From Owenia fusiformis (taxonomy: Eukaryota; Annelida; Polychaeta; Sabellida; Oweniidae), in assembly GCA_903813345.2 (NCBI GenBank), contig CAIIXF020000005.1, forward strand, positions 17,487,375 to 17,551,374: a stretch of DNA of 64,000 nt. The letters are read 5' to 3'. Below the pieces are notes generated by a model that was given only the letters and a program-made list of their open reading frames with translations, had not been told where the DNA came from and made no database searches. How positions within the stretch are numbered: position 1 is the first letter of the stretch; every line of letters starts with the position of its first letter. Positions 158 through 32,587 of the stretch are shown piece after piece. The translations under genes were made by a program, and so were the position numbers.

Positions 158-2754
158 CTTGGCCATGATCCTGTCAAGCTCCGTCTCACCCTTTAACCTT
201 TTAGCTAGTTTTGTGACTGGAATATTAAGCTGTTGAATCTCATAATTATTGGTTCTATCAGTGGCTTTATCAATCCGAATCAGTTCTTCAACCATCTGAT
301 TTGACATCCTTTCTTTGTGATTCAACTCTTCATCTTTTAGTTTCTGTTCTTCTTGTATTGTCAGTGGCTTTGGTGGCTTAGTTCCAAGTGTCGGGTGAAC
401 AGTCTTTAGTTGTTTAAGGAGGGAACACGAGCCCGATTTTATGATGTAAATCCATGGTGTATCACGTGTATCTTTACAAATAATTGTTTTGCGTTTGAAA
501 AACACAAACATTGACTTTTGGGGATATTTCGGGAGAATGTCAAGAGGCCATCCATTTAGGCATGGTATGGTTTTGAAAAAGGGGTCATCTGTTGCAGCTT
601 TAAGGCCCCCGCTCATGAATATATTTATAAAGTCTTTAGCTGCTATTGCCATAAGTTCAATTTGCTGCTTTGATATAACAGTTGATTCTCTTTTTGTAGA
701 GTTCACAATAGCTGCTTCGCCAAAGCTGTCACCTCTATTAAGGAAATGCAATGTTTTAGCTTGATCTTTTTTCTTATCCATTGCACTTACCATTGCTGAC
801 CCTGACAGTACAAAGTAGAACCCCATAGCTGTATGGCCCTCTCTGACAATCACCCGTTTGGCAGAGTATGACTCGTACCATGCACATTCTGCTATTTTAC
901 TTTGTATTGCCTTCGGGTATTCAACTATAGATTTATAATTTTGAAGGGCAATTTGGATATATCTTATTTCATCTTCCGTTCTTGTGTATGATGGCTTCTT
1001 CAACAATCTTACTAACTCCGATGGGGCTCTTGATTCTTTGTCGGCCTTGAAGTCAGTCACATCAAACAAAAGACTTTTCTTAGCTTCAATTTCATCCGCC
1101 ATCATGCTAACTGCATCAACATAACGGAGAACATCTCTTTTCATCCGCTCGTGAAATTCAGTGCAAAGTCGGAGGAACTTCAACAAGAAGCGGGCAATCC
1201 TTTTGAATTTCAATCCAAGTTGGATCTGAAAGAGAAACACATCGACTATATATTTTTGAAAAGATAATAGAGTGAGTGCATCAATTTGCAATCAGTATTA
1301 TAATCATGTTAAAATATTGTTTAATAGTATGCCTTTTTCGTTTACCCCTAATATCATGTTCTATATATTTATTAGATTTATTGCAAATCAAGATTGTACA
1401 GTGAATAACAATATAGCACAAACCGTACCCTTCGTTTTCGCCTGGCCATTTCATGTTTTGTTTGAACAATTCCAACAAGCCCATCGCTTACACTTGCTTT
1501 TCTATCAATCCGTTTCTTGTTCATCGTCCCAAGAACATTGGCTAATCTAACTGAACTCCTTCGCCTTAATAGGTTTCCTTCCTGGTTGTTCGCATCTTGA
1601 GATTCTTTTGAACCCCTCCGTCGTGACATCATCGAGGTGATTGTATTGGCTGCTGTAACATGGCTAAACACTTCTTTGACACTCTTCCTTCGACCTCCTG
1701 TGGGATCTTTCCCTATAATACTCGACCGTCGTCCGATTGAATATCTGTGATCCTCACTACCTTGACTGCTCACAAGGCTAGAGCCACTTGTTCGCCTAAC
1801 GAGGCTATCTTTTCTACTTAGTCTACCTGTGAACGTTGACTCGGTAGATGAGGTACCAATTTCTTTTGAGACAGATTGCTGCCTACTCAATCGACCTTGT
1901 AATGTTGACTCGAATGACTGATTCATCATTGTATGTTGCTGGCTTATATTTGGCAATTTGGCACGTTTGTTCAATGATTCAAGATCGTCAGCACTGTTGA
2001 TTGTCTCTAAGGTAAGAACTTGAGCTTTTGTTTTGTTAACGGGGTCGAGTTTGCTTCGACCACCTTTCAACTGTGTTCTCATGATCATACGACTGTTTAA
2101 ACTTTGTTTTCGAAGTCCGGTAAAGTCCTCAATACCTCTGTCAATAATCTCTAATTCATCATTTGTAAGTTCCTTTTCAACAGCTGGGGCCTTTTTTGGT
2201 TTAATATCATATCCCATTTTATTGAGAGTAGTACGTATACTTGCTTTTCTATTTAAAAAAGGCAGTTCTGGTCGAAACACTGAATCCTCGCCGATTGACG
2301 TAATATCTGAATCAGATACGCTCCTCATACTAATACGTCTACTTCCAGCCAAGCTGGGCCTCCTATTGAACTTGGTGTTCATGGTTGAGTTGAATGATTT
2401 TGGTGCAGTAGGGGCATTAAGTGAAAAGTCTTCATGGAGAGTTTCGAGCTGGGATTCATCTGTATCAGTATCACCTTGGAGACAATCATTTCCAGACTGG
2501 TACTCCAAATTATTTGATTTTTTAACCTTTTTCAACATATTTGATCGTACTTTTAGACTCCCTCGTAACCTATCCAACATTCCTTCCGATTTCGATTTTG
2601 ATTTCCGTTTCCTTTTCTTCTTGTTGCTTGGATTGTCCGAGACATATTCCCCCACGTCGTTCTGAGAATTTCCTGTCTTAACTGAATGACCTATGTTCCA
2701 ATTGTTAGTCTCCTTTGAGCTTTTAATAGCACTTTGGTCAATTGCCTTCGCCAT
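158..2754 (-). CDS. CNBD2: CNBD2-like cyclic nucleotide-binding protein, copy A, 5' part only
   Basis: Two coding exons are visible: 1429-2754 (442 codons from the ATG at 2752-2754) and 158-1225 (356 codons). The intron has donor GTACGG and acceptor CTTTCAG, phase 0. Exon 2 ends at donor GTAAGC and the gene runs off the left edge, so the C-terminus is missing. Residues 1-442 are basic, Ser/Arg-rich and probably disordered, with a Lys/Arg patch near 45-56. Exon 2 carries a cyclic-nucleotide-binding fold at about residues 548-645, with the phosphate-binding-cassette signature FGE (610-612) and Arg621 in RESTV. A second conserved stretch follows (IYIIKSGSC). Order and spacing resemble vertebrate CNBD2, a sperm-associated cAMP-binding protein; I infer a similar ciliary or sperm role. 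The N-terminal tail is packed with PKA-type RRxS sites. The neighbour on the same strand is SLC28 copy A. The family call is confident; the exact orthology is less so. Confidence 0.82.
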
Positions 2755-5700
2755 GTTGATGGTTTGTTGATCTTACCCTTTCTTCGACACAGAGGGTTGT
2801 TGGATAAGATCTGATATTCGTTTGCAGTAAGAGGATTTGTTTCTGATCGTTTAAAGGCTTCGGTAATATTTCTATTGTTAAACATTGTAAAGTGACTAAT
2901 CATATTTAACAACTTTGAAAAGTACAATATTTTCTATAGTCGGTAATTCGTATTTATTAATCTTGGCTTATAGATTAATGGTTTATCAGATTAGTGCAAT
3001 TTGTATAGACTGGACTTATTCCAAGTTCGTACAAATTGTCGTTCAGTCAGCCATTGTTCCCTGTAACAGTGTCCCTTTGTTCGTAATTCATGGTTCGTTG
3101 ATACATAAGTTTCGTGTCGTTACCACTTGACTCCAAATAAATGTAATAAGGCAAATAAAATTCCTATATATCAACTTTGTAAAATCATATTCGTCCTTGG
3201 AGGATCTGGAAACGTCTGGAAAATACAAATATATTATATTTATTTATAAGATACTAAATAATTCAGTTTTCACGCGGTATTGTTTTTGATGCAACAGATT
3301 GCCCATTGTCAGTAATCCATTCAGATTCTTTTTATTATTTCCATTTGATGAGCATTTCCATAAATATCACATTTTTAAGATAATAGACATTTCAGTCATC
3401 ACTAGTTTTTATGAAACAAGAACAACATTCTTGATATCTAATTTTAGAACATTAAGAGAATCCCAAATTATGTCGAATGCATTTTGGAAACGATATTCAA
3501 AAAACCAAAATGCCACAAATAATATACATCCATCAAAAAGCAACTTGATATTACAGTCACGTATTCTATAAACAACAAAACCAACAAACAATATATATCC
3601 AACATACGCATCAAATAAGCAATTTATATCCAGCATTCTAATATGATACGTGACGTCACAATAACTAGAACAATTTATTTACCGGTCTATATTGGAGTAT
3701 GTATGACCGCTAAACTTCATAAATGCAAATAGTTGTGTTTCTTGTCTGTTTATCATATAAGAATCATAACGAAGACCTCGATTTTATGATATATGTCAAA
3801 TATATAACCTCAAATTTTATTTACTCTATCGCTCCGCGATTTCGGTCTTTTAACAATGAACAGAATAAAAGTTTCGGTCATATATTACGCCATAAATCAT
3901 AAAATCTCGGTCTTTATTCCTTAAATATATTTAACGAACAAACAAAATATATGCAAGACACATCAAGTTTCCAACAAACAATATATACATTAAACATATA
4001 TATTTAACAAACGACATAACAGCATAATCAACAAAAGATGTATATCTTACAAACAATATATCTAACAAACATATATATCCAAAAATAATAATACTTTTTA
4101 TTCAAAGAGTAAAAGAAACAACATAAAAGCATTTATCCAAACAAACAAGTTTAGAATTGCACCACAAAACATTATATGCCACAAGACGTTATAATATTAT
4201 AGTTCAACCACCCAAAATACTCGTATATATATCAAATTGGAATCTGTACTGACGAGTACAAAATTAAGCATATCTTAGTACTCCTGATTTTTCGACATAC
4301 GGTTGTACAAAGTGTCCTTGAAAATTAGTTATCAAACCCGTTAATAGTTCTTATAATCTAATTTCCTTACCTTTACTTATTTATGAGACATGTACACTTG
4401 CTGATTTCATGTATGACCGTCGGGAGGCTTAGTAACTAAAATAAAAGTAAAGTCTAATCGCTATAAATGAAATCAACATTGTCAATTATCTAAAGATACT
4501 AACAATAGAATATTGTCAACAATCTACTTGTAGGACATGTTTTATTATCATTTTATTTGTACACCCGGGATTAATTCTATAGACGAATGTGGTTTGTCTT
4601 TTTGTATTTATATAAGTGATTGATTGGAATCGTGAAATAACTTTTTCCCATATTTACAAAAGAGCGCCGTCTAAAATGCAGAGTCAAGTGATTTGATGAT
4701 AAATCGTAAAAAAGCCTATTTGATTGTTAAACATTATAAAACATGTAAAGTTAAAGCTACTATTCTGTTGATAGTTTCGAAACAATAAAAGTTCTTACTT
4801 TGAATACACAGTTTTCGAATGATTTTTATTGTAACAATTTATCGAATCCTTTAATCTCAGAGCGACAATAGTAGGAAGATTATATTTTATTTATTAGAAC
4901 AATATACTTACCATATAGATATTTCCTATTATGCAGCCATTGTACAACAATATGTAGCCCTACCCTGTGGATTTGGTAAGCGGTATTGAATAATTAATAA
5001 CTAAAAGTATTAATTTTGCTACACAACTGAGAACGAACGTTTTCTATTTCTATTTCTGATTTCTATTGATGGATAAATCCTCTTGAATCTTACAAAATCT
5101 TCATGTCTAACACCCTTAACCATTAGTTTCTTTTCTGTAAGTGCTTGAGAGACTGTTGTCGAAATAGCTAACGACGGACAATACGTATGAGAGTCCTGAG
5201 ACCTAAGTCATGTACTGTAAGTAACTCGTCCAGTCAACAGGGAAAACAAATTAAACAATTACAATGAATTGTTCTTTAAATGACATAGGAGCTATACCGG
5301 AAAAGTTGACAATATAACATTTAATATGTGATTATTTATCCATGGAATGTAATAAATACCAATTTCCGAGAGAGTAAATAGTTCCTACAATGTACCATTG
5401 GATGAAATTACAATATACTATTGATGATTTATTTGTAATCCGTGTCCAGATTGCAAATACTAATTTCATATTACGTATAGTTTACGGGGGGTAACAACTC
5501 CAAACACCAAACTAATTGTAACGTCTAGATTTATAACTTATTATGTCATGGGTAAACAAACATTTTATAGATCCACAAGTTCAATGAGTGTATATCAAAT
5601 GGTATCTTCATGGACTTTGTATGTACGATTATTATTATGAATGTATATAAATAAAAAATGTGTTTCTTGTGAATAATTTAAATTAATACACAATTCTTTT

Positions 5701-6099
5701 ATAATGATGGATTGTATACTGAAACAAAAAGTCAATATCAATTAACGTCTGTATCAGATCAAAGCCGTAGATCAACTGTGTTAATTCCTTTAGAAGCTAT
5801 CGCGTTGGAGATTTAGGTCTCTCTCCAGGTGAATGTCGCACACACCAAGCAGTTTATTTTACCAGGGGACAAGGGGAACAGTATGTAACAGTGACTACTG
5901 TGACCAATGTTTTGGCTAAACTCATACCAATTTTGACAAATAATTTACTTATATTCAATAACCCAATGTAAGATGTCAGAAAAGCAATGCAGGCCTTACT
6001 GTATCATCTTATCACGTTCCAATATCGCATACAATCAAGGAATCCTATTAATCACCATCACCAAGTATATTTTTTGTAACTGAATACTAAGTTCTAATA
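2755..6099. other. Intergenic region between CNBD2-like and SLC28 genes, copy A
   Basis: AT-rich sequence with no convincing coding exon. Just upstream of the CNBD2-like ATG, minus-strand 2776-2927 is an open frame ending in a good donor (GTAAGA). It is identical in copy B and may be 5'UTR or an alternative first exon. The rest aligns to copy B with small indels, except that B has a MITE inserted at the site corresponding to about 3497. Confidence 0.6.
5853..5858 (-). terminator. Candidate polyadenylation signal of SLC28 copy A
   Basis: AATAAA on the minus strand about 240 bases past the SLC28 stop codon. It is kept at the equivalent place in copy B. No cleavage site can be verified from sequence alone. 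Confidence 0.35.
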
Positions 6100-9000
6100 T
6101 CAGGCTGATATTGTTGTTGATTGGAGTATAGCTGTTCCATTGGCTGACCTTAATATGTCTATTGTCTCACCGTCTACGTATAAGAGACCTGAAAACAAAC
6201 ATTCCATTGTTGTAGTCTCAGTAAAATTGTGTTCAGTGGCATTATTAATGGATATTTATTACCTCTTGGGATGTGAGACTATAAAATGTATCTATGTACT
6301 GAAAAATCGATATAAAATATTTTGCAGAAATTGAAATATACAGTATGAAAAGACACCCCTCATGGCCTTCGATAAAAAAGATATTGCCGTAAATGGTGAG
6401 AAAATCGTACCAATTTTGTGATTTTTTTTGACTGTTTGCAAATGTTTCTGTTCTCTTTCCACTAGGTCATCTAGTTTTTTCTGATTTTGAACAAAGCAAA
6501 TACCTGCAATACAAGCTGTCATGAAACACGCAATATTTCCACTAATCATTGCGCGTAACATTTTTGAAGCCATTTCTGAGCGTCGCAGGGGAGCCATGGC
6601 ACCCAGCGCACCCAGATTGATCCCTATGGCAGCAACACTTCCAAACCCACACAATGCGTACGTCGCTATAACAACAGAGCGGGTCTGAAAGAAAAATTGG
6701 AGGATTAGAAAGTACATTGGTAGCATAAGAGAAAAACATTTTATTAAATAGATCAAGGTAAACACGTTGCATGACGAAATCTTCTAACGTTAGCACTTTG
6801 AATACTCTGGCATTATTTATTAATCAACAAATTAGGCGTTTAAGACCACAAGACTTTGACTTACATATATAACCTTGAGACCATGATTAAATTGTTTCAT
6901 CCCATAGTTAGGATAATTAGTTTCCGTTTGTAATTTAGTGCAAAAACATAAAAAAAATTAAACATGGAAAGGGTAATGTATGAATTTATTTACCGAAATT
7001 TCACCAGCGTCAACCAGGGGTTGAAGTCTACTATATGCTACGAATTCATTCAGAAAGATCTTTGTTCCTATAAGACTCCCCACCTTGCCTGCATCCTCCC
7101 ATTGTATGCCCATCATGAACGCAACTGGCATGAACACATAAGAACATATCCACTGCAAGTACATGTAATGTTTGTATTTACCAATGAACACATAAGAACA
7201 TATCCACTGCAAGTACATGTAATGTTTGTATTTACCAATGAACACATAAGAACATATCCACTGCAAGTACATGTAATGTTTGTATTTACCAATGAACACA
7301 TAAGAACATATCCACTGCAAGTACATGTAATGTTTGTATTTACCAATGAACACATAAGAACATATCCACTGCAAGTACATGTACTGTTTGTATTTACCAA
7401 TGAACACATAAGAACATATCCACTGCAAGTACATGTAATGTTTGTATTTACCAATGAACACATAAGAACATATCCACTGCAAGTACATGTAATGTTTGTA
7501 TTTACCAATGAACACATAAGAACATATCCACTGCAAGTACATGTACTGTTTGTATTTACCAATGAACACATAAGAACATATCCACTGCAAGTACATGTAA
7601 TGTTTGTATTTACCAATGAACACATAAGAACATATCCACTGCAAGTACATGTAATGTTTGTATTTACCAATGAACACATAAGAACATATCCACTGCAAGT
7701 ACATGTAATGTTTGTATTTACCAATGAACACATAAGAACATATCCACTGCAAGTACATGTACTGTTTGTATTTACCAATGAACACATAAGAACATATCCA
7801 CTGCAAGTACATGTACTGTTTGTATTTACCTATCAACACATATGAACATATTCATTGCAAGTACAAGTAATGTTTGTGAACACATAAGAACATGTCCACT
7901 GCAAGTACATGTAATGTTTGTATTTACCAATGAACACATAAGAACATATCCACTGCAAGTACATGTACTGTTTGTAGTTACCTATGAACACATAAGAACA
8001 TATCCACTGCAAGTACATGTAATGTTTGTATTTACCAATGAACACATAAGAACATATCCACTGCAAGTACATGTAATGTTTGTATTTACCAATGAACACA
8101 TAAGAACATATCCACTGCAAGTACATGTACTCTTGAATGTAATAACCTACCCTGCGCGCAGAGCTTAGTTATAAACCACCGAAGACGAATAGAAGCTCTC
8201 TTTTAAGAAGTGAAGTCGAACGAATACACGGGGTATGAATAACCACAAATCGACCTTAAGTATCTTAACTTCAGATTATAGATTTGATTTTTTATCAATA
8301 GTTCTGTAACGGTTTGTTTGTTGCTTGTTTGTTCGTTTGATTTAGTAATTGATTGTTTGTTTTTAGATTTTAAAAATAAATACAATATGTATTGAATAAC
8401 TTCAGTACCTCAAAGCTGACTTCCGGGTAACCAACTATCGAACCAAGGTAAGACAATGTTGCATTTAAGAATGCTAGTAATGATATGAAGGCTATGAGAT
8501 TCACCACAACGCCTGCAACAAGTTTAATGGCAGCTACTGCTCCATTACTCGCGGCTTCGAGAATATTCCTCTCGCTCCTGAAATGAAATAAGAGTACTAT
8601 AATAAATACTTGTGCAATAATTGTCAAAATAGATATTCTAATTGTCATTTATGCTTCATAGTTAACTGGACTCCATGTCTTAATATTTTAAATTATCTAT
8701 TTCACGAGATCAGATCGATAAACAGAGACCACTTAATTGAACTCAGGTTTGTTTGTCTTCTTAAAATGCTTCCTGAAGTTTCTGGTCATCTTCTTTGCTT
8801 ACCCTTTCTCTAGCTTTACATCATCTTGGGTAACAAGACAAGATTCCTCCGTCTCTGGAAAGTTAAGTTTGGCAATTGCAAGAGCTGCTGGGGCACTCAT
8901 AATCGCTGCCGATAGTACATGTTCTGCTGGGGCCTAAAATACATAAACACAATTTATGGAACGTGGAGCTAGTCAATAGCATATTCGTCCATTGCAAACA

Positions 9001-11743
9001 CAAAACTTCTTCCAATTCCTTAGATAGATATAACTGCCATTTTTGAACTTGCACATAGTTGAATTATTGAATTCTATCCAAAACATAGTTATTGAAAACT
9101 TTGTGAATATACACACCATTTTCAAATTCGATTGGAGAGTTGTCAGTTCGTTTGCTTAAGTTATGAATATTCAAGTAAAACCAGGTTTGCTTTTAAACAC
9201 AAAATAGCGTATTCGTATACCTTGAAATTGATGAAAGCTGCGACAACTGTTCCTGCAATGGTGGCGAATCCTCCTGTCAATACAGCGTGCAATTCAGACT
9301 CCGTTAATTTCATCAAGAATGGTCTCAGGATTACACTGGATTCAACCTGGATACAAAAACAAAGATAAAAAATAAAATAAAGTGAACATCGACGATAAAA
9401 TAAGTCACCCCTAGCATTATACACGGAACGACAGAGAAAATGAAAAGCACCAACGCTACTAGAACGAATTTGCAATGCACGAAATACAATATACGTAAGT
9501 GTTGTTCCATCTATACTGACCGTCCTTAATTACATGCTCCAGATATCATAACAATATACATATAAAAAATTATGATAAAATATTAATATAAATATATAAA
9601 AAATATAATACCAGAGTGATGAATTTGCACAGAAGTATGCATACCTGGCCTAAAAATATGTTTGCAGCAGCACTCAGGGATTCCACTCCTGTGGTTCCCA
9701 TGGTGACCTGCATCAACCATGCAATCTTAGAGATGATGATCTGCATCACACCAATGTAGTATAAGATGGAGATGACGGAACTGAAGTACACGATAACAGG
9801 GAGAATCTGAAAAGGTAAAACAAATCTAGACAATGGCTAATTAAGCGATGTGGATAATATACGTACCTATAAAGGGAGGCACTTCTGAATTAATGAATCC
9901 ATGAAACATTACAAGTCACACCAGCAATAATATACGATCTCATCCAGATGATAGCCAATTTAGCGATAAGGACGATATGTATGATAGTATGATATGTACC
10001 GAGGGGCACTACGGGGTCATTGAATTTCTGAAACATTCTTAATGATTCCGATTGTAAAAATATAATGCATCTACATAGTATCACATTAAAATCAACTATA
10101 AAAATAGCATAACAACGGTATAACAATCCTAAATTATGGCTGACTGGACTAGGACTTCATCCTAGGCTGACGACAATAACATTGAAATGTACAAATCGCC
10201 CAAATGTAAATAAATCATTATTGATGGTTTCTAATTTCACAAGTTTTTCACATACCATGTAAAGACAGAACGTTACAATGATTTCCAAAGAAAAAAACGT
10301 TGGTTTCATTTCTATAAACGTGTTCAATGTATTACAAAGGGATCACCCAAGGGATGTGATTGTAGGTATTAATTTCTCTTGTGCTGTCTTTCCATTTCCC
10401 GGCCAGAACTTTGTGTTTTATATATTTATACCTTGAATGCCACCGCATGGAGAAGATATTGAGGATCTCCGAAAACAAATTTGGAACCCTCATCTGTATA
10501 TGCTAGGAATGTTTCCACTTGACTTCCGATAAACTGGAAGGCTGTATATCCAACGGACCAACGAAGCACAAGTAGACCAAAGATGAATTGAAGAGCTAGC
10601 CCCCAAATCACTGGTCTCCAGTTTACCTGTAAAATGCAAACAATGTATGTATCAAGTATCATTTTATAGATTGTTTAACAACATAAATTAGGATAAATTC
10701 TGAAGAGGATGTTATGTCTATAACTAAGTACCACTGGTTAAATACAGTTCGAACAAAAGTTTAAGCACATGCATTTTACATAAACACAGAATAAACAATT
10801 GCTGAAACATTCAATAAAAACTGTACTTTTATGAGAAAGTAAGACTACAATGTCAATAGTAGGCTATGTATATAAAAACCTACTTTATGGGGACTTTTTG
10901 ATGTTATGAATAATAACATGACCCACAGAACGAGTCCCCCGGCAGAAATGAGTTTGTCTGGTTTCTCTAGCGAGTTTAACACCAGGAACACAATGAGACC
11001 AACAATTAGGCAAACGTACACGAGCCTGGAATAAGAAGAAATCATGAATATGTGAGTACTTGAAAAGTTGACTCTTATGGTAGTAGGGTACGGGAATCTG
11101 TCAAGTTATTATGCTGTCTGTTTCATTTGTTCGTATTATGTCGATCATGCCACAAGTTATGATGATTTCCAAGTGCTATTCCTTGTGAATGAGTATCATA
11201 ATATGGACCCATGATCTATAATTCTAAATCTTCTATTCAAAATTAGTCTTACCATTTCAAGCATGGCCATGCCTTGTCTATGTATATTCCTAATGGTACA
11301 CAGACCACCTCGTTTATCCTCTTTCCATGCCGATCTCTGATATAGCCATACACAAGACAAACAAGGACAAACACAGTGATTACAATCAAAGCAATGGCAC
11401 CAGAGGGACTGAGGTAGATGGCATAGCCAAGATACGCGCTGTACAACAGAATGAGTATCACAAGAACAATTCTTGAAATAAGCTTTACATTATCAGTCAT
11501 TAATCCTGTGATTGAGGTGTGTATTGTTGCGATTCCTCTTGTGCAACAGTTCCCGTCGTTATCACCTTCGTTTGTGTCTTTCGTGTCGGTTAAGTCTGAG
11601 TCAATTGCAATTGATTCCAAATCTTGTTTATGTGCTTTATTGGTGTCTTCGCTAGCATACTTAGATGCATAGTACACGTTATTTAGTTCAATTTGGTTTC
11701 CAGTGTCGTCCGCTTGGAAAGCTTTGTTATGTTTACCATCCAT
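6100..11743 (-). CDS. SLC28: Concentrative nucleoside transporter (SLC28/CNT family), copy A, complete
   Basis: Sodium-coupled nucleoside symporter of the plasma membrane. Ten coding exons on the minus strand: 11253-11743, 10884-11025, 10432-10626, 9645-9806, 9221-9346, 8803-8933, 8409-8577, 6994-7152, 6504-6684 and 6100-6188. All junctions are GT-AG and all phases close, giving 614 aa (human CNTs are about 650-690). The start is the first ATG (11743) after an in-frame stop, in good Kozak context. The N-terminus is cytosolic (1-90); membrane helices begin at about 92-111 and 116-134. The CNT signature [12 protein letters not shown] is at 501-512, with Glu508. Na+-site residues Asn325 and Thr359-Ile360 are kept. 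GQTE of other CNTs is GQVE here (329-332), and the Asn and Ser of the ALCGFAN region are Ser541 and Ala544, so substrate preference may differ. The tail has a possible N-glycosylation site at Asn602. Intron 7 contains the 54-bp minisatellite abutting exon 8. Confidence 0.93.
7134..8145 (-). repeat. 54-bp minisatellite overlapping the exon-8 splice acceptor, copy A
   Basis: About 19 head-to-tail units of 54 bp, the first 13 nearly perfect, then one degenerate shorter unit and five more. Read on the minus strand, each unit has a donor-like GTAAAT, then the acceptor ACTTGCAG, then the first bases of SLC28 exon 8 (TGGATATGTTCTTATGTG). The array starts inside exon 8 and extends into intron 7. The unit length is a multiple of three and the unit has no stop in several frames, which explains the long open frames on both strands. 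Variants alternate between ATGTAATG and ATGTACTG on the plus strand. Confidence 0.95.
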
Positions 11744-11888
11744 TTTATCTGTTGTCCTCTGTCCAGTCACCGTCCAGGTTGTTTAACTGTTGTTGTAGTA
11801 CGAAATAAAAAATTCTTAATGTTTGCTGTTCGTATTGAATGATCGCTGCTACTTTAAGATTGTCATGTGTTTCGAATTGAATTGACCC

Positions 11889-11900
11889 CCCTATATAATT
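11889..11900 (-). promoter_or_regulatory. Candidate TATA box of SLC28 copy A
   Basis: On the minus strand AATTATATAGG lies about 150 bases upstream of the ATG, which would place a transcription start near 11862. The matching region of copy B is just outside the window. No initiator could be confirmed. Confidence 0.35.
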
Positions 11901-13446
11901 ATATTGACTCTCTCTTATCGCATTATTCTTGGCCACTCACTATTCAAGATCAAAACCAGCAAATTGTTGACTCCGAATACTTTATAAAGCTCTGCTAAAG
12001 TCAACATTGACAGGTAGTGCTAATACATGTTTTTCAATTTAACATGCATGCTCATAAAAACCCAAAGTGATATCTGACATCTAGGTTTGAATTCGATGCC
12101 TTTGTCAAATGAATAATTCTAGAATAATTATTCGGTTATATTCTTTGAAGTCTCGGCACTAATTAGTATGTATGTCGTTTGACATTGGGTCGCCAATATC
12201 TATGCATATATGCATAATGCCGCATAGTGCCCCTTTTAGAACTGCAGAATAGTTTTATTTAGGCTATTAACGTTTATGTTTGTTTGTATTTGTTATATAA
12301 CTGTTGATCGTTATGCTCTCTGATCGTAAAGGGTATGTTATTCCAAAACAATAAAAATAATTTCTGAGATTGCAGTTCTTGTTTTGCATCATAGATGAGA
12401 AATGAAGAGTTTAGAAAGATCTCAAGTGTGTGTGAGTGAAGTAAGCTTTCCCTTGACTAGACCTGTTTCGGTGTTCGTCTGTTCTTGCTATATAGCCTAT
12501 TTGCAGTGAATGTTAACTGAATGGGGTTTGCTTTTGTTTTGTGATTGTGTAATGTTGCTTTCTGCTTTTTAACTTTTTCAGGACGGACAACTAATCTAAA
12601 ATTATTTTTGATTTTGAAATATAGATGGCTACATGAGTCACGAAGGAAAATGCTATATCGGGTTAACCCAACTAATTGTTATAACATGCGTATTCCCATA
12701 CAAACAATCTGTCTTCAAGAGAAAACTAAGATTTGTGGACATGTTTTGCTATCATTGCATCATACCCCAGTATGTTCTCTGTCAGTCAAAAAAGTTTGAA
12801 TCAAAACTCCCCACGAAAATCAAAAGATCTCACCTGTTGAAGACGCCATCTATAGAAAATGTCAAAAAATGTCATTCTGATTTTGACAGATGGAGGCAGG
12901 TCAAAAAGGTCAAATTTTTTAAAGAAAATGCACCTTAATCACATCAAATCATGTCTCAGAGTTGGTCCACACATACACTTTTTCATTCATGTACTTACCA
13001 AAATCCAACCACTGGTGATGCTAATGTAATTACAATAATTGGACTATATTTTTGTTTTTATAATGCCATCTATTCGTCTTCCCACTCGGCGGAAGGATCT
13101 AATGGTTGTGTGTCTCCATCGTAGACTACTTCACACAACTTTTAAAGTAGTTCCTTTTGATTTTGAAAGATGTCTCATCTGATCATTCAAATCAATTTCC
13201 ATATTTTAGCGTCTTTTAAGTTGTCCTTACTAGCTATAGTTGGAAAGATGGATCTGCTTTAAATGATTGTTGACTTTGAATAATTATAGAATATTACAAT
13301 GATAAATCCAGTACCGTTCATTTACATATCTACGAATATGAAGAAATGTAATATTATAATTCGTTTAATATTTTGAATGTGTCAACCCATGATATAATGT
13401 AATTAGCTTATGTTGCATGGTGTCACAAAACTACGGAACAATATGG

Positions 13447-13738
13447 TAGTAGCCGGGACAGAACAAGTCATTCCTCTCTTTTTCCTGATAATTTTTCCAC
13501 CTTCAATGCTCAATATTTTTTTATGAAAATTTCACAGGATAGCCTCCAAAGCATTCCTAACATACAAAGTATTTTGTTACACTCGTTATCAATTTTCATT
13601 TCAGTTACAGCTTTTTGAATTGAAAATGATGCTGAACTTCTGTTAAAGAACCATTTTCTTTTTTTTCATGAAAAATTATTGAGAATTGAAAGTTATCGGG
13701 AAAATAGATAGGGATGACATGCTCTGTCCCGGCTACTA
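13447..13738. repeat. Fold-back (MITE-like) element
   Basis: Terminal inverted repeats start TAGTAGCCGGGACAGA on the left and end TCTGTCCCGGCTACTA on the right. Weaker complementarity continues inward for about 90 bases per arm. The 292-bp unit has no coding capacity, as expected of a non-autonomous DNA element. Confidence 0.7.
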
Positions 13739-16362
13739 AGCACTAAGCATGCATATCCTATCGATGAAAAATTGAAACGCTAATCCATCTTTTATATGAT
13801 ACTTCAAACATTAGGCTTAATATTTATGCTGAGCATTGACAACTAAAAATGGAACTCGGCACGCCATAAAAGAACATTGCAGTTGCAACAAGTTCAAAAC
13901 GAAAACGTTTATAGGACATGTATACTTATATTAGTACCAATAATTTAATATCATCATCTATATAACTGTTTGTTCCATTAGTTAATAGCAGAATCAGATC
14001 TATAGGCGTGACGAAATTACAAGCAACATGAACAAATGACCTACCTATTTATTCCTTACAATCTCAAAACTTATATCCCAAAAGATTCATCACGATATGT
14101 TGTAAATTGTCAAATTGATGAAGTTATTATAGATTCAAAGTGCAAAAATGGGTGAAAATGTTTAAATTCTCACAAATAATAAGAATGGTAACCAATAAAT
14201 ATTACATTATTGTAGAACTCTTTAGTTTTCCTGAAATAAAGTGTGCACATAGGGGATTTTTAGAAAATAGATATGACAAGGAATGTCATGAGCCAATATT
14301 CTAAATTAAAACAATTTTTTATTGGCCTGCTTGCTATATCTGATTTTCTCTAATTATACGGAAGATTTTAATAAATTAAAATGAACCTGGGAAGAAGTTG
14401 CCTAAATGGTTCATACCCTGATCACGAGCACCTCAATGTTTTAAATTAATCATTAATTGTATCAAACTGACTTGCTTATGAAGATACTTCATCTGTAAAA
14501 AATGCCCAAACGGTGTCTAATACATAATATATGATAATTTATAACATCATGAACGTTACACTGGCGACATGATGAAAGTAGATTTGGACAAGACGCGTGG
14601 TGTCCAACAATACACCGAAGAAACAAACAACCAAGAGCATAGAATTACTGATGACATTATTGTAATTTATGTATGTTTTATCGTCATTTATTAATTACAT
14701 TAACAATTAGTAGGCTCTGGTCGACGTCGCAGTGAATGTTTATTGAAGGTGGAATACCTCTTCGAGGGGAGGAACGATCGTTGTATTGTCAATGCTCCTT
14801 GGGTCGGAAGAAACATTTGTACTCTTAACTCTAGTCTTTAATTAAAGCTACCGCTCTTTAACTAAACCACAAAACAGCCATAAATTATAGATTCTCAAAC
14901 GGCTACAAATAAAAGTTAAATATATTGTGGTATTTAATCAAAACTATTTTACATGTTAAGTACCCTGATTAGTCCTCCTATGTGAAGTAAAGATTTATAC
15001 CTTCCCAAACATGTTTTGTGTCTTTTTCAACGTTTACCACCGCAATTCTATCATTGTATATAATTATTAAACAGTTGTCTAATTATTCCGCAAGGTGGTC
15101 TTTCTCTGTGAGTTACTCTGGCAATTTTGTTGTTTCAATGGGCCATGCTTGGTTTCTAATGAGCTACAGGGCAGTTGGTCCCTGTTGGAGAACAATCAAT
15201 CATCAACAACAGTGTTACTGACACCCCTATGTAGTGCTATAAGGATTTAGTTACCTCCAATACAGTAGTGTTTTCTGTGTGAACACAATCAGTTGAGCTG
15301 CAAATTTATTTTAGATTCGAGTTTAAAAAATTGGTGTGATAGTACCTCAAGCTGAATGAATATATCACTGTCTCATGTTAAAGCACATATGAAAATAATG
15401 TGTTGGCACAAGGAATTGATATTCTTGACAGGACTAATCCTAGTTATTTCATAATTATCGTCTATGAGTCTATTATCTATGCTCTTGAGTAAGAGTCGTG
15501 AATTGTACCGGTGGGAGCATGTGTCCCGGGAGAAACATAAGAAAATCTTATTGGAAAGAAAGAACAAATAACGGGAATAATATAGGGTTGTTATTTCTTC
15601 TTTCATTACTTTACAGTTGCGCTATATAAATCAAAGAAACGCTAAAGGTGTTGAGAACAAACATAACAGTGATTTCACAAAGCTAGCTCTGTCTCTTATG
15701 TCGCAATATGTCACTGAAAACTACCTCGAATGCTCGCATTTCCCATCATTTACTAATGACCATACCGGTTTCTAATTATCTCTTCGACTTTGCAAATGGC
15801 CCTTAGAAATCATTCAACATGTCAGAATCTCCGCGAAGCACGACCCAATGGCTAACGAGCCAATGAAATGATAGCGCCTGCGTGCATAATTAATACCCGA
15901 AACCGACCAAAACATCCCCGGGTATCATGTACTATGGCTGTGTTACCACGTACGGTTAAGCATCAATAAATATCTTTGAGGAACGCCGCTAATTAATTTT
16001 GCCATATCTTATGATTCTTCTGATTGGTCAACTAGTTGTGGGCCATTTTGGTAATTGAATTAGGGACCAATTACCATCAGTAAGGGACGATTAGTAAGTA
16101 CAACAGCGCAAAACGAGGACCATATTAACGTCGGCGAGTGTTCCGCTGGCCATTTATCTTGCAACAAGGGAAGTCTAACACTTGATACGTCATTCGAAAA
16201 CGCTACTTACGCCAACTTAAGACTAAGAGGAGCACACGACTATAACGTGAATTTTGAGTGTTTCTTAAAAGAGATTCATCTAAGACATTTTGGTCTCCGT
16301 TTATGACATCGTTTATGAAGACTGAAAAGAGTCACAGTTGTTTATCATTTCATAATATATCT

Positions 16363-16427
16363 TATATAAGTAACCTCAGAGTAGTCGGTGACTTTAAAGT
16401 ACAAGGCATATACATTAAAAGTAATCG
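16363..16427 (+). promoter_or_regulatory. Candidate Lbx core promoter and 5'UTR exon
   Basis: TATATAAG at 16363-16370 is followed about 30 bases later by a plausible start region. A strong donor GTAAGT begins at 16428, and an acceptor (TTATTTTTCAG) ends at 16760, 19 bases before the Lbx ATG. Together they suggest a short untranslated first exon of about 16393-16427. A transcript would be needed to prove it. Confidence 0.45.
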
Positions 16428-16779
16428 GTAAGTAATACTTTGGGATAATATTTAGAAATTAAAGAAAATTATATAATGCAGCTAACATTACGGAAAATAA
16501 TTTTCGTTTTTTCATGTATACAAATCAAATCAAGAATCACATTATCATGAAATTATAACAATTAAATAGTCATTAACTTATTTGAACTTTTAATCATGAA
16601 TTTTGCACATGAAAGGATGATTGGGATCAAGTGCAATTGCTAGGCAACTGTATAGGGATGTACAGGGACGAACATCGTCACGAAATATACAAATGACAAC
16701 CAAATAATAAACAAAATTCAAAATATTTATGATCAATTGAAATATTAAATTATTTTTCAGGTTTAAATGATGAGATAAA

Positions 16780-19700
16780 ATGTCCAGTAGAGCAGATAGT
16801 TCATCAGATTCGGATGATAGCTTACACGAGCGCTACTCCCCCGTTAAGGTAATGGCTTTGTCTCAGTTACCTCCCCCAAGGAACCCATCAACCAGCAAAC
16901 CAGTCACTAGTTTTCTTATCAGAGACATCCTTCATAAAGATGCTGCAAAGAGCGCCCAGAAACGTAAAGAATCGAGTGTTTCCTCACACACGCACACACA
17001 CGGACCTTTAAGCCCTTTAAATAGGTTTCATAGTAGTACTTTACATCAACCACCTCATATAAGGGGACCCCCATCACACGGACACTTTTCACCCCATATA
17101 GGCCTACAGATTGTTCGCCCATGGGATGCAGCATCTTCTAGGAAACGATCTAGTTCAATGGCTGCTCTTGATGATGTTGATTCAGAATCAGACAATAGCG
17201 ATATAGAAATAGACATAGTTGGAGACGAAGAAGAAAAACCCAGTCCAAAAGTAAAGACCAAATCAAAAGTTTCCCCTTTAGATGCCCTGTTTGAAATGAC
17301 AAGTAAAACGTTTGATGGAAATGGTACCAATGCATTAGCAGGTAATTATATTATAAAACATATCACTACGTATGCTATATTCGGATTATAATTTCTATTA
17401 AAACCACCACATGACATTTGTGGCATTAGTTGTTGACTCCAAAATATATTTTAATTACCTGTAAATTAAAAGCAGGTTATAAATGTAAAATTAAGGTGTA
17501 TATCTAAATTCTCTCTTCAAAGGCACCGAAGTATACATCAAACTAACAATTTTTAAAAATTGTTTATAAGACATAATCTTCAAATCTAATCCTAACTCTA
17601 ATCTTTAAACTCTCGGGATTTCCTATACACATGTTTAGACGGAAACCATGGAAGTCTAAAATGAAATAAAGGGAAAACACAAATATGTATTTTATTTTGT
17701 AATGACTCTCTGATCTCATTACAATATACAAAACTAATTATACAAAACTTATTATAAAACTTATGATAAACTAAAACAAGGCTTAACTAGCTAGAAAATG
17801 TAAATTGTAAAATATTATATAGAATGACAAAATCGTAAAAATATCAATCCAATTATGTATTAGTAACTAGTTTATTATCGTCAACTGGAAAAGATCCCCA
17901 TTCTGGACAACTTCTAATTTGAAAACAACGACAATTATTTGTGCATCTAAAAATAACAATAATACAATTCACAATTGTGTATATTCTGTGATTCGGTCGT
18001 ACTTTACCATTTCATTTCCTCAACAATTGGGAATTTGATAACAGATCGCTTTCTAAGACATATGTCGTGAGTTTTCTTCTTCATTAAATAAATGTTTTTC
18101 CACTACCTTCTTAATCACTATAATTGGTACAATTAGCTTCAAACAATCAAGTATTAACCACTGGGTATTCTTTATCTAATTATATCTACATCACGACAAT
18201 TGATTTGACGTTAAAGTGGAAAAGTATAGACAGTTAATAGAAGCCCCTTACGGCAATTTTATATTAACTCGAGTGAATTTTGACATTGATACGCTATAAT
18301 TTACTGGTATTCCACTTTTAATGGAGTTTATTAAATTTGGATGAAATGATATATCTATGTTGTATTGTTTTTCTTAGAGAGCACAAATGTCTTGGTAATA
18401 GAATATTATAAATTATATAATGTGGAGCTTTGATGTCTTGTACCCTCAATTTAAACTTATCAAAAATTAATTGTTGGCTTTCTTGAAAATCAACCTACTC
18501 TAACCTTCTTGGGTTATTTACATTACTGTTAATTTCTCTGTTTCAAAAAAGTTTATTTATCTGAATTGGATAACAATCAAAAACGATGAAGATCATTACA
18601 CGCACAAATATCATTACTACTTTTGTTTTTTCTTTTCATTTTTTCTATTATTTCTATATTGTAGTAATTATGCGACGAAAACATGGTTATTACCAAACAA
18701 CGGATGACGCTTATATTAAAAGTAAACACAGTAACAAAACTCAACCAACAAATCCTGATACGCATTATAGAACTATCATAAAGTTTGAATATGTGGTGGT
18801 TCTTGCGCTTGTTGAAAAGTTTTAAATAATGTAGAAAAAATTGGCTGCATTTGAGTTCATCTGGAACATTCTGACCCGTTTTGGGCGGTGATGAGTGGTG
18901 TATTATCCAGAGGCAAATTCTTCCAAGACCATTCTAAGTAAAACAATCATGTTTAAACATAGGTGAAATCCCAATGGTCCGCATTAGTGTAACTATATGA
19001 CTAATTACTCTTAATATATTTCAAATCTCCATGGCAACCGATAGCCTATGAGATGACACGGTACTAAATTGCTAGATAACTCCTGGATCACGGTTAATGA
19101 TACCTTTTATGCCCATTTAACTAGTCACTCAAGTTAATTGATGTTTGGGAAACGACAAATGTATAATAAAAACATGTGTCCCATTAAGACAGAAATGATA
19201 TGTTGATATGTAGAATGATATTGTGTTGAATGATTATTTAACGCAAACACGTAAACAGTCTGGGAACAATGTACAGTCCGTGGTGGTCGTTTGGCTCCAA
19301 TATCAAACATTCCATGGGGATAGAAAATTTGCAACACTCTCAACATAATACCGATGTATTGATATACAAATTTATGATATTCTGATTACATATTTCAATT
19401 AATATCCAATCAACTTTGGACAATAAGTTACAATCTTGTTTAAAATTGTGAGGGTGCCATTTCAGTGAGTCGGAATATATCCTCCCAGGTCCCGAGAGAA
19501 TTGTTACAATTTGACCATTAAGTATGTTGTCTTTTACTTACAACTTTTGTAACCACTCGGCTACCATTACAGAAACAATATTTTCCTTGGAAGATCACTT
19601 ACTTGTAACAAGTCACCTAGTACATAAATACCACAAGTTTCTGCTAACTAGATGGAAAGCTGACATGCCACTCTTTGAGCTCATCTTTTCTATACATATG

Positions 19701-22700
19701 CAGATTCTTAAATTCCTAAGTTCTGGCATTGGTGAATTACTGACAGGTTTGGCTAAGCCAGCCGAGAACACTAATCTCTTCGAAAAAATTGTTAAATTAT
19801 TAATTTCATAAATTCAATGAATATATATTTTGTGGTGTATCGAGAATTATGAATATATTCATTAAATCACATTGCACATATAACTTATTCAAACTGATAT
19901 CATACCATGTATATTTTCATTCATTGTAAGTACTAACTACTATTTTTAACAATGATATAATGAATCGTGGTACATCATGAAAATAAGCACCATACACGAA
20001 ATAGTCTTGCATTGTATATAAAAAACAATATTTATCAAAACTAGTTAACAAGATGTGAAATATGGCCTCAACTGTCTAATGTAGAATGAAGGAAACATTA
20101 TATTGTAAGTAAGTAAACATAGAGAATATAGTTAGATTTTTTCTTGCCCGTGTTTGATGTGTAATAGCAAGAGATACAGATACAGGTTTAGTTCACGTGT
20201 TGTCTGCTTGTCTTGGTGCCTAATTTGCAATTCTGGCAACAATGTTTAAAATCTATATAAACTGTGGACCACTTCCAAAATGCATTTGTCAAGCTTAACA
20301 AAGGTATACCCACAAACCATGGTATAAACAGACTTTCGTGTGATTAATTTCGTGTTTACCGAAATGTCATGTTTTTCATGAAAAAGATGATAAGTTATGA
20401 TTCTGATACTGATTCAGATCAAATTAACTCTGTTTTCATCCTTCTATGTATGTTTTTCAACCAGGAATCATTAGCATTGAAACTCCTTTGAGGATGGATT
20501 TCTGCTTCACTATGTATCTTTAAGTATTCGTTATTTATGTATCGAAATTAATTAAACTCTTTAGTCATGGCAAAATATGATCCAGAATATTTAGTGGCGT
20601 ATATAAAGAAGTAATTTGATCATAGGGATGTGCTTGATATATACTTCCCGATGTCTTTTAACTTAGATAGCGGTTAAACATGAAAGGAAAGATAGACCCG
20701 ACTGAAAATTATTTTAAGAGGGCTGTTAGTGATTTACAAGCTGATGAAAATACATTTCCAGTACCATTTTACTGCCCATTTTTCTCCCCATATCGGACGA
20801 TAATGGCATCTAAAGCATATTTCACCATGACGCCATGTGCCAATGTGGAGGTCTTTATCAAAGATCACATCTAATTGGGTATAATAACACTTGGCAAAGT
20901 GAGAAAATATGAAACAGAATGACTCAAATTAGTTTCGTAAATTCATTTTAATTATTTATTGAGTAAAGTTTAATCGTTCGTATTTGTTCTGTCGATCGAT
21001 CTTTAATCACTAATCATTGTACTGATCTGATATGTTTTCAATAGTATCTAGCTCTGACTGATGCCCTTTATTATGGAATCTTTTGGGGATTTTTGAGTAT
21101 AATTTTATGGCTTGTCCTAATTCATTGAATTTATCCGTTTGTTGGGTTTTCATTGTGACTATCTCCTTCAAACATTACCCATTGCGCATTATTATGATTT
21201 GATTTGAAATTTAGATACTTAAATAAGTACGGTAGCAGGATCTCCAAGGGTATTTTCTTTGGAAGGACACCTCATATATTTCCAAGTTAGTTCATAAAGT
21301 TTCTTGGTAAGAGGAGCCGATCATTAGCGGAGTGTTTAATGTTTTTGCTTGTGATTAAAGTTTACTATCATAGTAAATGTTGCTTATCACTCGCCACCAA
21401 AACCCAGTGTAAATTAAATGTTGGGGTTTTCCACTAAGTGTACGTAATTACTACTTTTAACCAGTGATAACCCCTGTATCACTTGTAAAATTTTATCAGT
21501 TTATTCTGCCTGGTTTGTAAATTGTTGCCCCACATCCAGACGAGTTGTCATGGCAACAAGACTATCACTTGTTTATTTAAATTGGAAGAGGTGTAAAGTC
21601 AAATATTTATAAACTTTGAAATCACAAGGATATGCTTTACAAAACTTCACGTTGTTGTTAAAATAAAAATATAGATAATATAGATAATAGAAAAGAAGCA
21701 AAATTACCAATTCTTAAATTAATTAGACAATTACATCATAGAAAATTAATTAACCTAAAATCTCAAGTTTGGTTATTATATAAGTATTACGAATAACTAT
21801 TACACAATTGTTTAACAAATGGTGTTTGATGTGAACGGGACAATGTTAGTGTGGATGGGTTTCTTTACTTTCAAATAGCCCGAAATCCCCAGGGGGACAA
21901 CCTTGTTAAAGATGCTTAATGTTTCTATAGAATACAACATCAAGGCCGGGGGACTATGGAGGGCATAACCTATAGTAGTTAATACAACTTATACCATATT
22001 TAATGGTATTTTACCATTGTAGGCCGACACAACTAAACTATTATTATAGCAATACAGGTGCACTGCCCAAGGAAAATTTTGTAACTTATTCCTCCTACTT
22101 TTGAAATGTTTTTCTGTAAGAAGACTTGTTGAACGACCTAGGATTGTGTTCTACCGACCAAACTTCACATCACACTTGGCTTATGAAAACAATATAAACG
22201 ATCCCTTTAACCTACTAAACATATCAATTAGATACATTTTTGGTCACTTTAGAAACCGAACAAAATGATATTTTAGTTCAATATCATGATACCAAGTCCT
22301 TGATTGTGTTAGAATAACAGTATATAGTAGTGATTGTAGTATATATCTAGATGAATATAAAATTCAATTCAATGCGTGAAAACAAAGAATACAAAACAAT
22401 ACAGAATATTGATATATTCTGTATTATATTTTTCATTCATTGAATCATATCTTAAAAACTCAAGAGTAACATTGCAAAGTGTCAATTAAACAATCTAACG
22501 TTAACTCAGAAAAATCGTCTTTGTGTTTCCAACATGTATCAAGATAAACAACACAGTTACAACTTCAGGTGGTCCTAGAATTCAATCCGATGTTTCCGCA
22601 AATTATGAAGGATTCTTCGACAATTAAGAAACATCTACTTTTTCATGGTAATTATTTACAAATTACAGATCTTGGCATAGAGAGAGAAACTGTCGTTTAC

Positions 22701-25700
22701 ATCGATTTAATTGAGAACGATCCCCTAATTTGTTCCACATTATGTCAAGGTGTAGTATTAGGTCAAAACCTCATGGAAATGTCACACTAAAAGTGACTTG
22801 CGTCAGTGATTAATTTTACTTCTCTTGGTCTTCACTGTTTAGGCCTGACACATACGCTCTAGAGGTGCATACCATCTCGTTTCACCCTGTGTGAAAATCA
22901 AAACGCTGTACAGGGATCTCGGTATGCCTAAAATGAATACCCATGTGTCGTTAAGTTAAACATTTGATGTAGAAATAGCACTGATTTTATTAATTATAAA
23001 CCAGTTTGAGGTGTCATAGTAGTGTTCATTTTTATTTTTACTGGGAAAGCAAATTATAAGTTATAAGTTTAAGATGTTTTATCAAGTCTATAACATAGTA
23101 TAATGTATACTTTAAACTATATAAATATGTTATAATAATAGTAATTATATATTAACAATCTTAGGATATATTAGGTTTAAGCAACGTTTGAAGAAATTAT
23201 ATCAAGAAGTAAGCATTTTTCTAAATCCAATGTTAATTAATTCAATTTGTCTTGTTAATTATTTGTTATGCAAGGTACCATCAACAATTGATTGTGATTT
23301 TATAGAATTTTAATTTTTTCAATAAATTGTAGTTATTATCTATATGCATAAATAATTGAAATAATGCGAAAAGGAAATATTGGTAATTTGGTACCGCATT
23401 CACGATAAGCTGCTAAAGATGAGAATACGTGGCACTCGAATTCGCAGACAACTGATATCTGGAATAATTATGATGAGTTTCTTTCCACTTTGTTACCTGC
23501 AACGATCGTTAGGAAAACTATCTCAGACCACACAGAACCAAATCAAAGAAAGTTATTAATATTATAATGTATATTTCAAATAGAAACCATGACCGTGATA
23601 TATGGGAAATTCTCTCTGAAGAACGTATTGTTGATGGTACCTAGTATAATCAATTGGAATCAATTTCTGCAGAATATATTCAATTCGGCTATGATTGCTT
23701 TAATGAAATTCTCGTTAGAAGCATTAATGCAATTCCTTCTCTGGTGCCGTGGTTATGATCATGAGGCAGTCATCTAACCATAACGGCTCGTCGCTACATC
23801 AAAGGCGCCGACGGTCGTATACATCAACCCAAACAAGGGTTCCTACACGACCATGCACTCGACACTATAAAATTTCCTATCATGAGTTTTTTAAAAAGAA
23901 AGTTAAAGGAGAAAATTTTACCATCAGTCACAATTTATGGGACTAGATCAGCCATTGGGCGTGTCGCGTGCCCCGGTACAATCCTATAAAAGCTAATAAA
24001 TATATAGTAATAACTCCCAAACTTGCCGTTAGATTAAAGATGACGTTTTATTGATTCCGATTAAAAATCCAGCTGCAAATAAATAAATTCTAGAAATCGA
24101 AAACTTTGTAGGGTAAACGTATTTTTACTTTATTCTAAAGTATTTTTATTTTAGTCAAGGGAATATAATTACATATTGACAATAAGCATGTCTGATTTTA
24201 ATCTTGTGATTTGCGGTTTAACATCATCAGATCAGTGACAAGTCTAGCAATGAGTTTCTGACTTGAATGTAATGATGGCTTGGCCACATTCTAATACCTG
24301 TTTGATGTCAGCAGTTAGTATTCGCTTATGTGAAGTTAACTGTGTTATAGGACGCTGTCACATAGCTTATCATCCGCTCATTAGTGTCTACATCCCATCT
24401 CGACTTGTCACATATAGTCACATTTGACTCAAATCAAAGTGGCAAGTATTAAAAAAGTTGAGCTGAATTTGACAACGCTGATCACCGAGACTTCAAGTTT
24501 CGTTTGAAGTTAGAACTTGAGGTTTCCTTCAGTGACTTTCGTTGTATTTCGGCTAAATAGTGTATGTTTAGTAGGCTGACGGAAGACATTGTTGCTACCC
24601 TTATCCATCAAATTTCCTGACATTCGCATGGGTGGGCCGGCTCTCTTTTTAGACTTTTTTATTTCTACAAAGTAATGTATATCAGAAATATAAAGAAAAT
24701 AATCTCCGTGAAAATCAGTCGCATCTGTCAAAGGGAATTATAACAGGAGCCCTAACATGACAGGGATATATCAAACAAAACTAAATTCGAGCTGCTTGTG
24801 GGAAAAAAGTTACTTTAGTACTGCTCTAGTCTTTCCATTTTGCTTCACGGCAGAAGTAAGTGACGATTGATAGTAATTTGAATATAATTAATTAAAATGC
24901 ATCGATCCATTTAATTTTTATTCGTACAGTATATGATGGGGACACAGAAAACAAAGTTATAAAGATAAAAAACACCAATAGATTGAATCCTAAAATATGT
25001 TTTAAAATAGTGAATCAATTCAATCTTTCAATTATTTGCTGTAGTATATAGTGATCATTGTGGCCAAACTAACAAAAGTTATTTGTATCTTGTGATTAGG
25101 GTCAGTGTTGCCTTTTGTGTCGGCAGAAGCTAAATTGAATTCACTGTTAATTAATGAGGAATAACATACTTAGGGGATTGACACAGCTGTCTTGTAATGG
25201 TGTATCCATCTTTCAACGCTCGTTTAATTAAATGTTGGACACTGTCATCGTTGGCATCCTGACAGCTTATGCAACTACTGCCCCAGTCAACGCTGCTTTA
25301 TCATGTCCAATCCCACTATTAATCTTTCAGGCATACCACCATGAATGAACAAATAAATTTTCTCCTATTAACAACTGAAATATGAATCAATTAATAATTA
25401 TCATTATTAACAATGGAACATTAAGTTTGCTAATTGTCAAAATTGTTGAAAGAAGCTTTAGAGACCGCATCAGCATTTGCATTCGAATATCGGAAATTAA
25501 AATGTTGAATTTCAATTCGGGTGAAAAGTCATTTTTAGGATTGACACAAAGTCGACTGTTTTCCCATAGAGACAGATACTCTATCAAAATGATTAGGATT
25601 AATAACAAATTAAATTGACATCAAGCAAACGTATGTGTTTAAATTGCCTAATTAGTGGACCCATTTGGTATTGAGTGTCTCTCTGTTTCTAGATTTATTG

Positions 25701-28090: not shown

Positions 28091-28180
28091 TTTACTTGAG
28101 TATTTACTTGAGTAAATTATCAGACTATCAGTTGTGCTTCCAAAAAATTATTGTAGATAATGTCATATTTGAGAATGAGA

Positions 28181-28600: not shown

Positions 28601-28770
28601 CTAATTTTTGGTGGTATTTACGCCAAAATAGTGTTTGTATGATTAAGACACATTGTTAAAGGCATTAAATGCAATTTATAGCACCTGAGGAATGACTCGC
28701 TAGTTTATGTCAAAATGTGCTTCTTTGCCAATTACTGGCGTTTGCGTCCTGCCAATATAATCACACATTT

Positions 28771-30935: not shown

Positions 30936-30947
30936 CCCCCCCCCCCC
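30936..30947. repeat. Poly-C tract
   Basis: An uninterrupted run of C on the plus strand. Similar C-runs occur at 36206 and 50861. Confidence 0.85.
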
Positions 30948-32533: not shown

Positions 32534-32587
32534 GTGAGTGAGTAAGTGGGTGAGTGAGTGAGTGAGTGAGTGAGTGAGTGAGTGAGT
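32534..32587. repeat. GTGA tetranucleotide microsatellite
   Basis: About 13 GTGA units, with two early imperfect units (GTAA and GTGG) and then a pure run. Confidence 0.95.

Follow-up and report, generated by a model that had tools for sequence, protein, structure and literature searches.

A 54-bp minisatellite carrying the exon 8 acceptor of an SLC28 gene in Owenia fusiformis, and other arrays at splice junctions

The closest described counterparts of the repeat analysed here are the "mirages" of amphioxus, minisatellites with units of 10-160 bp, each comprising the end of an intron, a splice signal and part of an exon, and situated at acceptors or donors (PMC3087553; PMC3902484; these and the later papers are cited for the parts excerpted). 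The same excerpts give haplotypes with 6 and 3 units for one mirage (BflGb6), describe others in troponin C and PGBD5 (units of 60 and 108 bp), and conclude from RT-PCR that regular splicing is undisturbed (PMC3087553; PMC3902484); one of them reports somatic length instability for the Adh3 mirage, and states that repeat copies with AG/GT could yield alternative, possibly aberrant, transcripts (PMC3087553). Judged by titles and the openings of abstracts, no report of mirages under that name outside amphioxus was recognised among the papers that full-text searches listed. The Adh3 mirage is said to have been described originally by Canestro in 2002. At NAGNAG sites, several tandem acceptors, 3 nt apart, compete for one donor.

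In humans, variable tandem repeats at exon-intron boundaries have been catalogued, with 27 intron modifications, and the excerpted catalogue presents them as internal tandem repeats that are likewise variable minisatellites over a splice junction and able to alter splicing (PMC2812944). These human cases are, according to the excerpt, recent paralogs with transcript support that can form novel introns and average 4 units, whereas the array described below is larger and known from DNA alone. The human survey reportedly cites Zhuo et al. 2007. Introns can also arise when an AG/GT proto-splice site is duplicated in tandem, as outlined in a further excerpt (PMC2891723; see also PMC4974935), and some units of our array (type B, below) share with that process an AG directly followed by GT; the duplicated stretch here, however, already holds a real acceptor.

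The window, by which we mean the whole stretch of 64,000 nucleotides analysed, contains an array of tandem units at an acceptor of an SLC28 gene, each unit spanning the intron-exon boundary together with its splice signal. As in mirages, each unit joins the end of the intron to part of the exon. The two copies, which are probably haplotypes, differ in unit number, with 18 and 16 units with intact acceptors compared with the 6 and 3 units of BflGb6. Since this anatomy is that of the published mirages and junction arrays occur elsewhere in the genome, we assign the SLC28 array to the same kind. Several acceptors face one donor, as at NAGNAG sites, but here they number 18 and are spaced 54 nt apart.

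The host gene and its two arrays

Pfam profiles and a structure search identified the host gene as an SLC28/CNT nucleoside transporter on the minus strand. In the profile search, PF07662 matched exon 8 (E 3.1e-20) and exon 9 (6502-6684, E 1.1e-18), and a Gate domain matched exon 4 (E 1.3e-9); in the structure search, solved nucleoside transporters, including SLC28A3, aligned to exon 8 from its second codon with no gap, the query stopping short of the junction. Our own spliced alignment yielded nine exons and eight GT-AG introns in each of two gene copies, to which further exons may have to be added. Exon 4 starts at 9806 in this model, and both copies are open, with 0 stops over 1758 nt of modelled exons. 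The features around the two arrays, with the copies named as the alleles that they probably are, are as follows.

8409..8577, minus strand: SLC28 exon 7, the upstream exon (spliced alignment), with the weak donor GAG/GTACTG, 4th percentile
8148..8236, plus strand: dispersed MITE-like repeat with ends TACCC...GGGTA, about 20 bp past the distal edge of the array
7130..8129, minus strand: array of allele 1, 54-bp units x 18.7 (TRF and unit table)
7980..7983, minus strand: type-B unit, AG directly followed by GT (TTCATAG/GTAACT), acceptor at the 47th percentile
7855..7898, minus strand: diverged 44-nt unit ending TTGCAA, its acceptor lost; it puts every more distal acceptor out of frame
7828-7831, minus strand: second, weaker type-B site
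7153..7158, minus strand: exon-proximal acceptor TTGCAG, presumably the one used (unit table and spliced alignment)
6994..7152, minus strand: true exon 8 of the SLC28 gene (53 codons), bordering the array proximally (spliced alignment and PF07662), with donor TCG/GTAAAT
60484..60652, minus strand: exon 7 of allele 2 (spliced alignment)
59278..60182, minus strand: array of allele 2, 16 segments, 16/17 acceptors intact (TRF and unit table)
59842-59896 and 60059-60113, minus strand: two 55-nt units of allele 2
59733..59787, minus strand: the 55-nt unit of allele 2 nearest to exon 8, with an in-frame TAA
59142..59300, minus strand: exon 8 of allele 2 (spliced alignment)

Tandem Repeats Finder (TRF) reported 18.7 copies of the 54-bp unit, with 95% matches, in the first array and 16.7 copies of the same unit in the second. 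When cut at the acceptor, the first array falls into 18 segments ahead of exon 8, 17 being 54 nt long and one 44 nt, and the second into 16, of which 13 measure 54 nt and three 55 nt; each unit takes in the last part of intron 7 together with ~23 bases from the start of exon 8. TTGCAG stands at 18 of the 19 boundaries in the first array, the remaining one reading TTGCAA, and the single acceptor of the second array that no longer ends in AG also reads TTGCAA. Every unit other than the 44-nt one carries a donor-like GT. The distal edge of the second array is diverged, and it is there that the acceptor was lost; in the first array the diverged pair (units 5 and 6) is internal, with four regular units further out. 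A genome search with three units, in which the best candidates were scored and very common words skipped, returned 17 matches among the best-scoring candidates, all of them inside these two arrays.

The original prediction had described 54-bp units that repeat the exon 8 acceptor and first codons of an SLC28 gene, and the TRF result, the boundaries with TTGCAG, the PF07662 match and the solved transporters bear out both the unit and the gene. Its expectation that unit number varies is matched by 18 against 16 units in copies that we take to be alleles. It had also called an array of more than ten acceptors something that it did not recognise; on this point it is superseded by the published amphioxus mirages and human exon-intron boundary repeats.

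The two gene copies differ at 35 of ~411 synonymous sites (pS 0.085) and at 7 of ~1347 nonsynonymous sites (pN 0.0052), and exon 8 is identical between them over 159 nt. The coding exons of both copies are thus under strong constraint, and the protein has been kept despite the array. As this constraint acted in both lineages, presumably while they carried the array, we infer that correct splicing must occur. The array-bearing intron (intron 7, phase 0) is present at the same position in all 17 of the paralog loci fetched, and the exon starts at the same codon in every one, whereas TRF found an array with a period of at least 15 at the ends of the equivalent intron in 0 of the 17, suggesting that the acceptor is probably old and that the array was added later.

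The MITE-like repeat beyond the array gave 40/40 matches among the best 40 of 1278 genome candidates, and similar stretches are present in two SLC28 paralogs (L014 and L018, below), where the coordinates of the introns place them in intron 5. Rfam yielded no match at the gathering threshold in the window, and three peptide repeat units found no credible match in Pfam, the best (E 0.038) failing the cut-off. A forkhead-like motif (RYAAAYA) that occurs as a pair in each unit reached P 0.04 by shuffling, which is too weak to build on.

Two gene copies within a 51-kb repeat

Both SLC28 copies lie within a larger repeat.

1122..52105, no strand assigned: first copy of the 51-kb block, the second copy starting at 52605 and ending outside the window, at position 104249
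52106..52604, no strand assigned: 499-N gap between the halves of the repeat

Homology between the copies extends up to the very bases that flank the gap on either side. Over 27 consecutive one-kb bins (22-49 kb) the mismatch is 0.00%, one bin holding 504 gap bases that fall at a 249-bp tandem repeat of 3 copies (36039-36775); a homeobox exon (27680-28090, PF00046) of what is presumably an Lbx-like gene is 100% identical in both copies. The first 21 kb of the block show 0.6 to 5% mismatch, apart from two bins (18% and 8.6%), and most kilobases of 3500-14000 differ from 55500-66200 by ~2-5%. One-base indels between the copies increase toward the gap.

An identical stretch, a diverged one and a gap would together be explained by the ends of two contigs that were left unmerged and that represent the same haplotype at first and different ones further on. 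A gap that separates duplicates within a scaffold, as found here, is a listed mark of false duplication, and the heterotype form resembles our case, in which presumably allelic copies lie to either side of a gap in the same scaffold, according to the excerpted account (PMC9516828). We regard the 51-kb repeat as probably a false duplication, which doubles an SLC28 and a homeobox gene in the assembly, and, judging from the sequences, the two arrays as probably alleles of 18 and 16 units. If so, the window illustrates how such a duplication may be mistaken for a pair of genes. That the SLC28 copies are instead a true tandem gene duplication seems unlikely, even though they share contig and orientation, both are intact over the modelled exons and 8.5% would be a high divergence between alleles at synonymous sites, which is the main point against the allelic reading. 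Even divergence would be expected of a genuine tandem duplication, and what we observe is homology that stops exactly at both sides of the gap, 27 bins without mismatch beside 0.6-18% at 1.1-22 kb, indels that become more frequent gapward, and the gap itself as the published mark. Repeats are often mis-sized in assemblies, yet an array that is itself an assembly artefact is hardly credible, as it appears on both sides of the gap, presumably in separate contigs, with differing unit numbers and variant units.

Splice sites, reading frame and rival readings

Splice sites were scored with position weights that we derived from 100 introns of the 17 paralogs, all at conserved positions and placed by protein alignment, not by RNA. 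The commonest unit acceptor scored 5.63 bits, at the 18th percentile of the 100 inferred acceptors (22nd in an earlier set of 86 introns), and the unit variant with G scored 4.76 bits, at the 12th. Across allele 1 the acceptors score alike (5.04 to 5.68 bits with the 86-intron set), and a 23-nt acceptor window revealed no preference for the exon-proximal site over the other units. Seven units are of type B, two in copy 1 and five in copy 2, and the acceptor of their common form is stronger than the real acceptor of exon 8. The donor-like TTG/GTAAAT of the unit lies at the 14th percentile (13th in the earlier set), and an equally good donor arose in 0.40 of shuffled units; the true donor of exon 8 lies at the 31st. 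From a unit donor to the next acceptor there are 29 nt, less than the shortest of the 100 inferred introns (80 nt), while the next acceptor but one is 83 nt away and within the observed range of intron lengths.

When joined to exon 7, 13 of the 18 acceptors in copy 1 and 9 of the 16 in copy 2 are open through exon 8. In copy 1 the 13 acceptors nearest exon 8 are in frame, equivalent to 12 uninterrupted extra units, and the five outermost are out of frame with stops; in copy 2 the three 55-nt units bring an in-frame TAA or a shift. Three of the six unit frames are open. With the exonic part of the unit fixed and the intronic part shuffled, 0.53 of shuffles remained open, so that openness is at chance level and the in-frame property is weak evidence for any function.

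The original prediction had called the 3' splice site working-looking and had counted about 12 uninterrupted in-frame units from exon 8, and the percentile of the commonest acceptor and the run of 13 open acceptors agree with it on both counts. The meaning that it attached to the in-frame unit length found no support, given the chance level of openness, the stops and shifts of allele 2, and the five of eight junction arrays (see below) whose units are not multiples of three. The array at 59278-60182, the donor-like GT of the unit and the out-of-frame outer five acceptors had not featured in it.

We consider it likely that the array is a near-neutral, length-variable mirage minisatellite, spliced from the exon-proximal acceptor and present here in allelic copies. 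It would have grown by repeated tandem duplication of the 54-bp stretch, through either slippage or unequal exchange, and would be nearly neutral, with an in-frame unit length that is accidental. The spliceosome would mostly use the acceptor beside the true exon, as this is the sole copy that yields the plain protein, and the array would leave with the intron; outer acceptors may be used at a low level. Exon-proximal use has points against it, namely the equal scores of the acceptors, the stronger acceptor of type-B units and the weak donor of exon 7. In vitro, an intron-proximal acceptor can win. Mirages have a homogenised centre and diverged edge units; divergence at the edge is clear here in copy 2 alone, a point against the mirage reading.

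Acceptors that look functional, and that are in frame and open in the numbers given above for each allele, could alternatively produce a ladder of isoforms, in which the use of more than one acceptor gives transporters lengthened by 18, 36, 54 ... residues, and these matter. We judge this very unlikely: open frames are no more than chance predicts, both alleles have stops or shifts in their outer part, and elsewhere there are junction arrays whose sites are intact and whose unit lengths would change the frame (73 bp in L018 and 68 bp in L038, below). Further, the exon-start codon common to all 17 paralogs implies that the added residues would be new to the family. A ladder at a low level is possible, with no positive support. 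The donor-like sites lend themselves to a different proposal, that unit donors and acceptors define 25-nt microexons, or AG/GT points like those of recursive splicing, and that their number tunes the share of out-of-frame transcripts that decay; were this decoy or dosage role real, allele length would set expression. Consistent with such a role are the rank of the unit donor, the type-B AG/GT sites of both alleles, the 83-nt introns that would run from a donor to the acceptor next but one, and the frame shift caused by a 25-nt insertion. A donor that good is, however, common among unit shuffles, and the direct step from donor to acceptor is shorter than any of the 100 introns measured, and we hold the proposal to be highly improbable.

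Junction arrays elsewhere in the genome

The sample comprised 17 SLC28 paralog loci and, as a second family, 16 compact SLC6 loci, all from one genome. Arrays over splice junctions were present at five of the SLC28 loci (5/17) and three of the SLC6 loci (3/16), that is, in 8/33 genes besides the window's own and in 9/34 with it, at acceptors and donors alike.

L014 (SLC28): 126 bp, 2.9 copies; intron 3 acceptor and most of exon 4; three intact acceptors
L011 (SLC28): 126 bp, 2.0 copies; intron 3 acceptor and most of exon 4; two intact acceptors
L022 (SLC28): 66 bp, 4.1 copies; intron 3 acceptor; AG kept in 2/4
L016 (SLC28): 28 bp, 38.4 copies, 1590-2665 on the gene strand; intron 5 donor; of 38, GT in the real site alone, the others AT (one TT)
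L018 (SLC28): 73 bp, 4.8 copies, 3915-4267 on the gene strand, to the end of the fetched stretch; donor after exon 9; 5/5 AG/GTAGGC
L034 (SLC6): about 32 bp; acceptor
L038 (SLC6): 68 bp, 4691-5080 on the gene strand; donor; six GT sites, three of them CAG/GTAAGC at the 88th percentile
L042 (SLC6): 55 bp; two donors

For the SLC6 loci and L018, the junction was placed from blast-defined exon blocks and a visible AG or GT, without a spliced model; the exon-block method missed L022, and the intron method missed L018. For L034 and L038, TRF also gives other periods (37, and 132 or 200). L011 and L014, on C6 about 14 kb from each other, have the same unit, and their arrays probably represent one event.

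Among the eight apparently independent arrays, with the window's included, unit length is divisible by three in three (54, 126 and 66 bp) and not in the other five (28, 73, ~32, 68 and 55 bp). Selection for keeping the frame was considered and rejected as unneeded, 3/8 being near the chance value of 1 in 3. The idea that arrays are drawn to junctions was likewise unsupported, in that random rotation of the arrays in the 17 paralogs covered 13.4 junctions on average compared with the 4 observed by the intron method; arrays would rather seem to avoid exons, and to be frequent, and tolerated at junctions. They occupy 8.0% of bases in the sampled SLC28 loci and 5.1% in the SLC6 loci.

In the host assembly, C1-C12 range from 31.9 to 62.2 Mb, together making up 477.5 of 498.3 Mb, with C13 at 0.66 Mb. 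A search for COX1 gave no match. The genome is in this respect unlike that of amphioxus, its 12 large scaffolds contrasting with the 19-20 chromosomes of Branchiostoma, and the new part of our results may be the frequency of junction arrays in a 12-chromosome genome so different, at a rate taken from one genome. A far-reaching version of this conclusion, namely that splice-junction minisatellites are a genome-wide feature here, outside cephalochordates, that they vary between alleles, and that at some of them, including SLC28, equal sites give isoform ladders dependent on allele length, is in our estimate unlikely. Each array is a natural experiment in how the spliceosome chooses when one intron offers many near-identical sites, whose number differs between alleles. 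Should the rate in the sample (9/34 genes) hold across the genome, then splice-site choice, array-derived intron gain and repeat turnover could be studied at many junctions in one animal.

About twenty clusters of SLC28 and many SLC6 matches were seen in the genome, numbers that give the impression of large expansions for an animal. The donor arrays of L018 and L038, whose units of 73 and 68 bp would shift the frame, appear to be good cases in which to follow splice-site choice.
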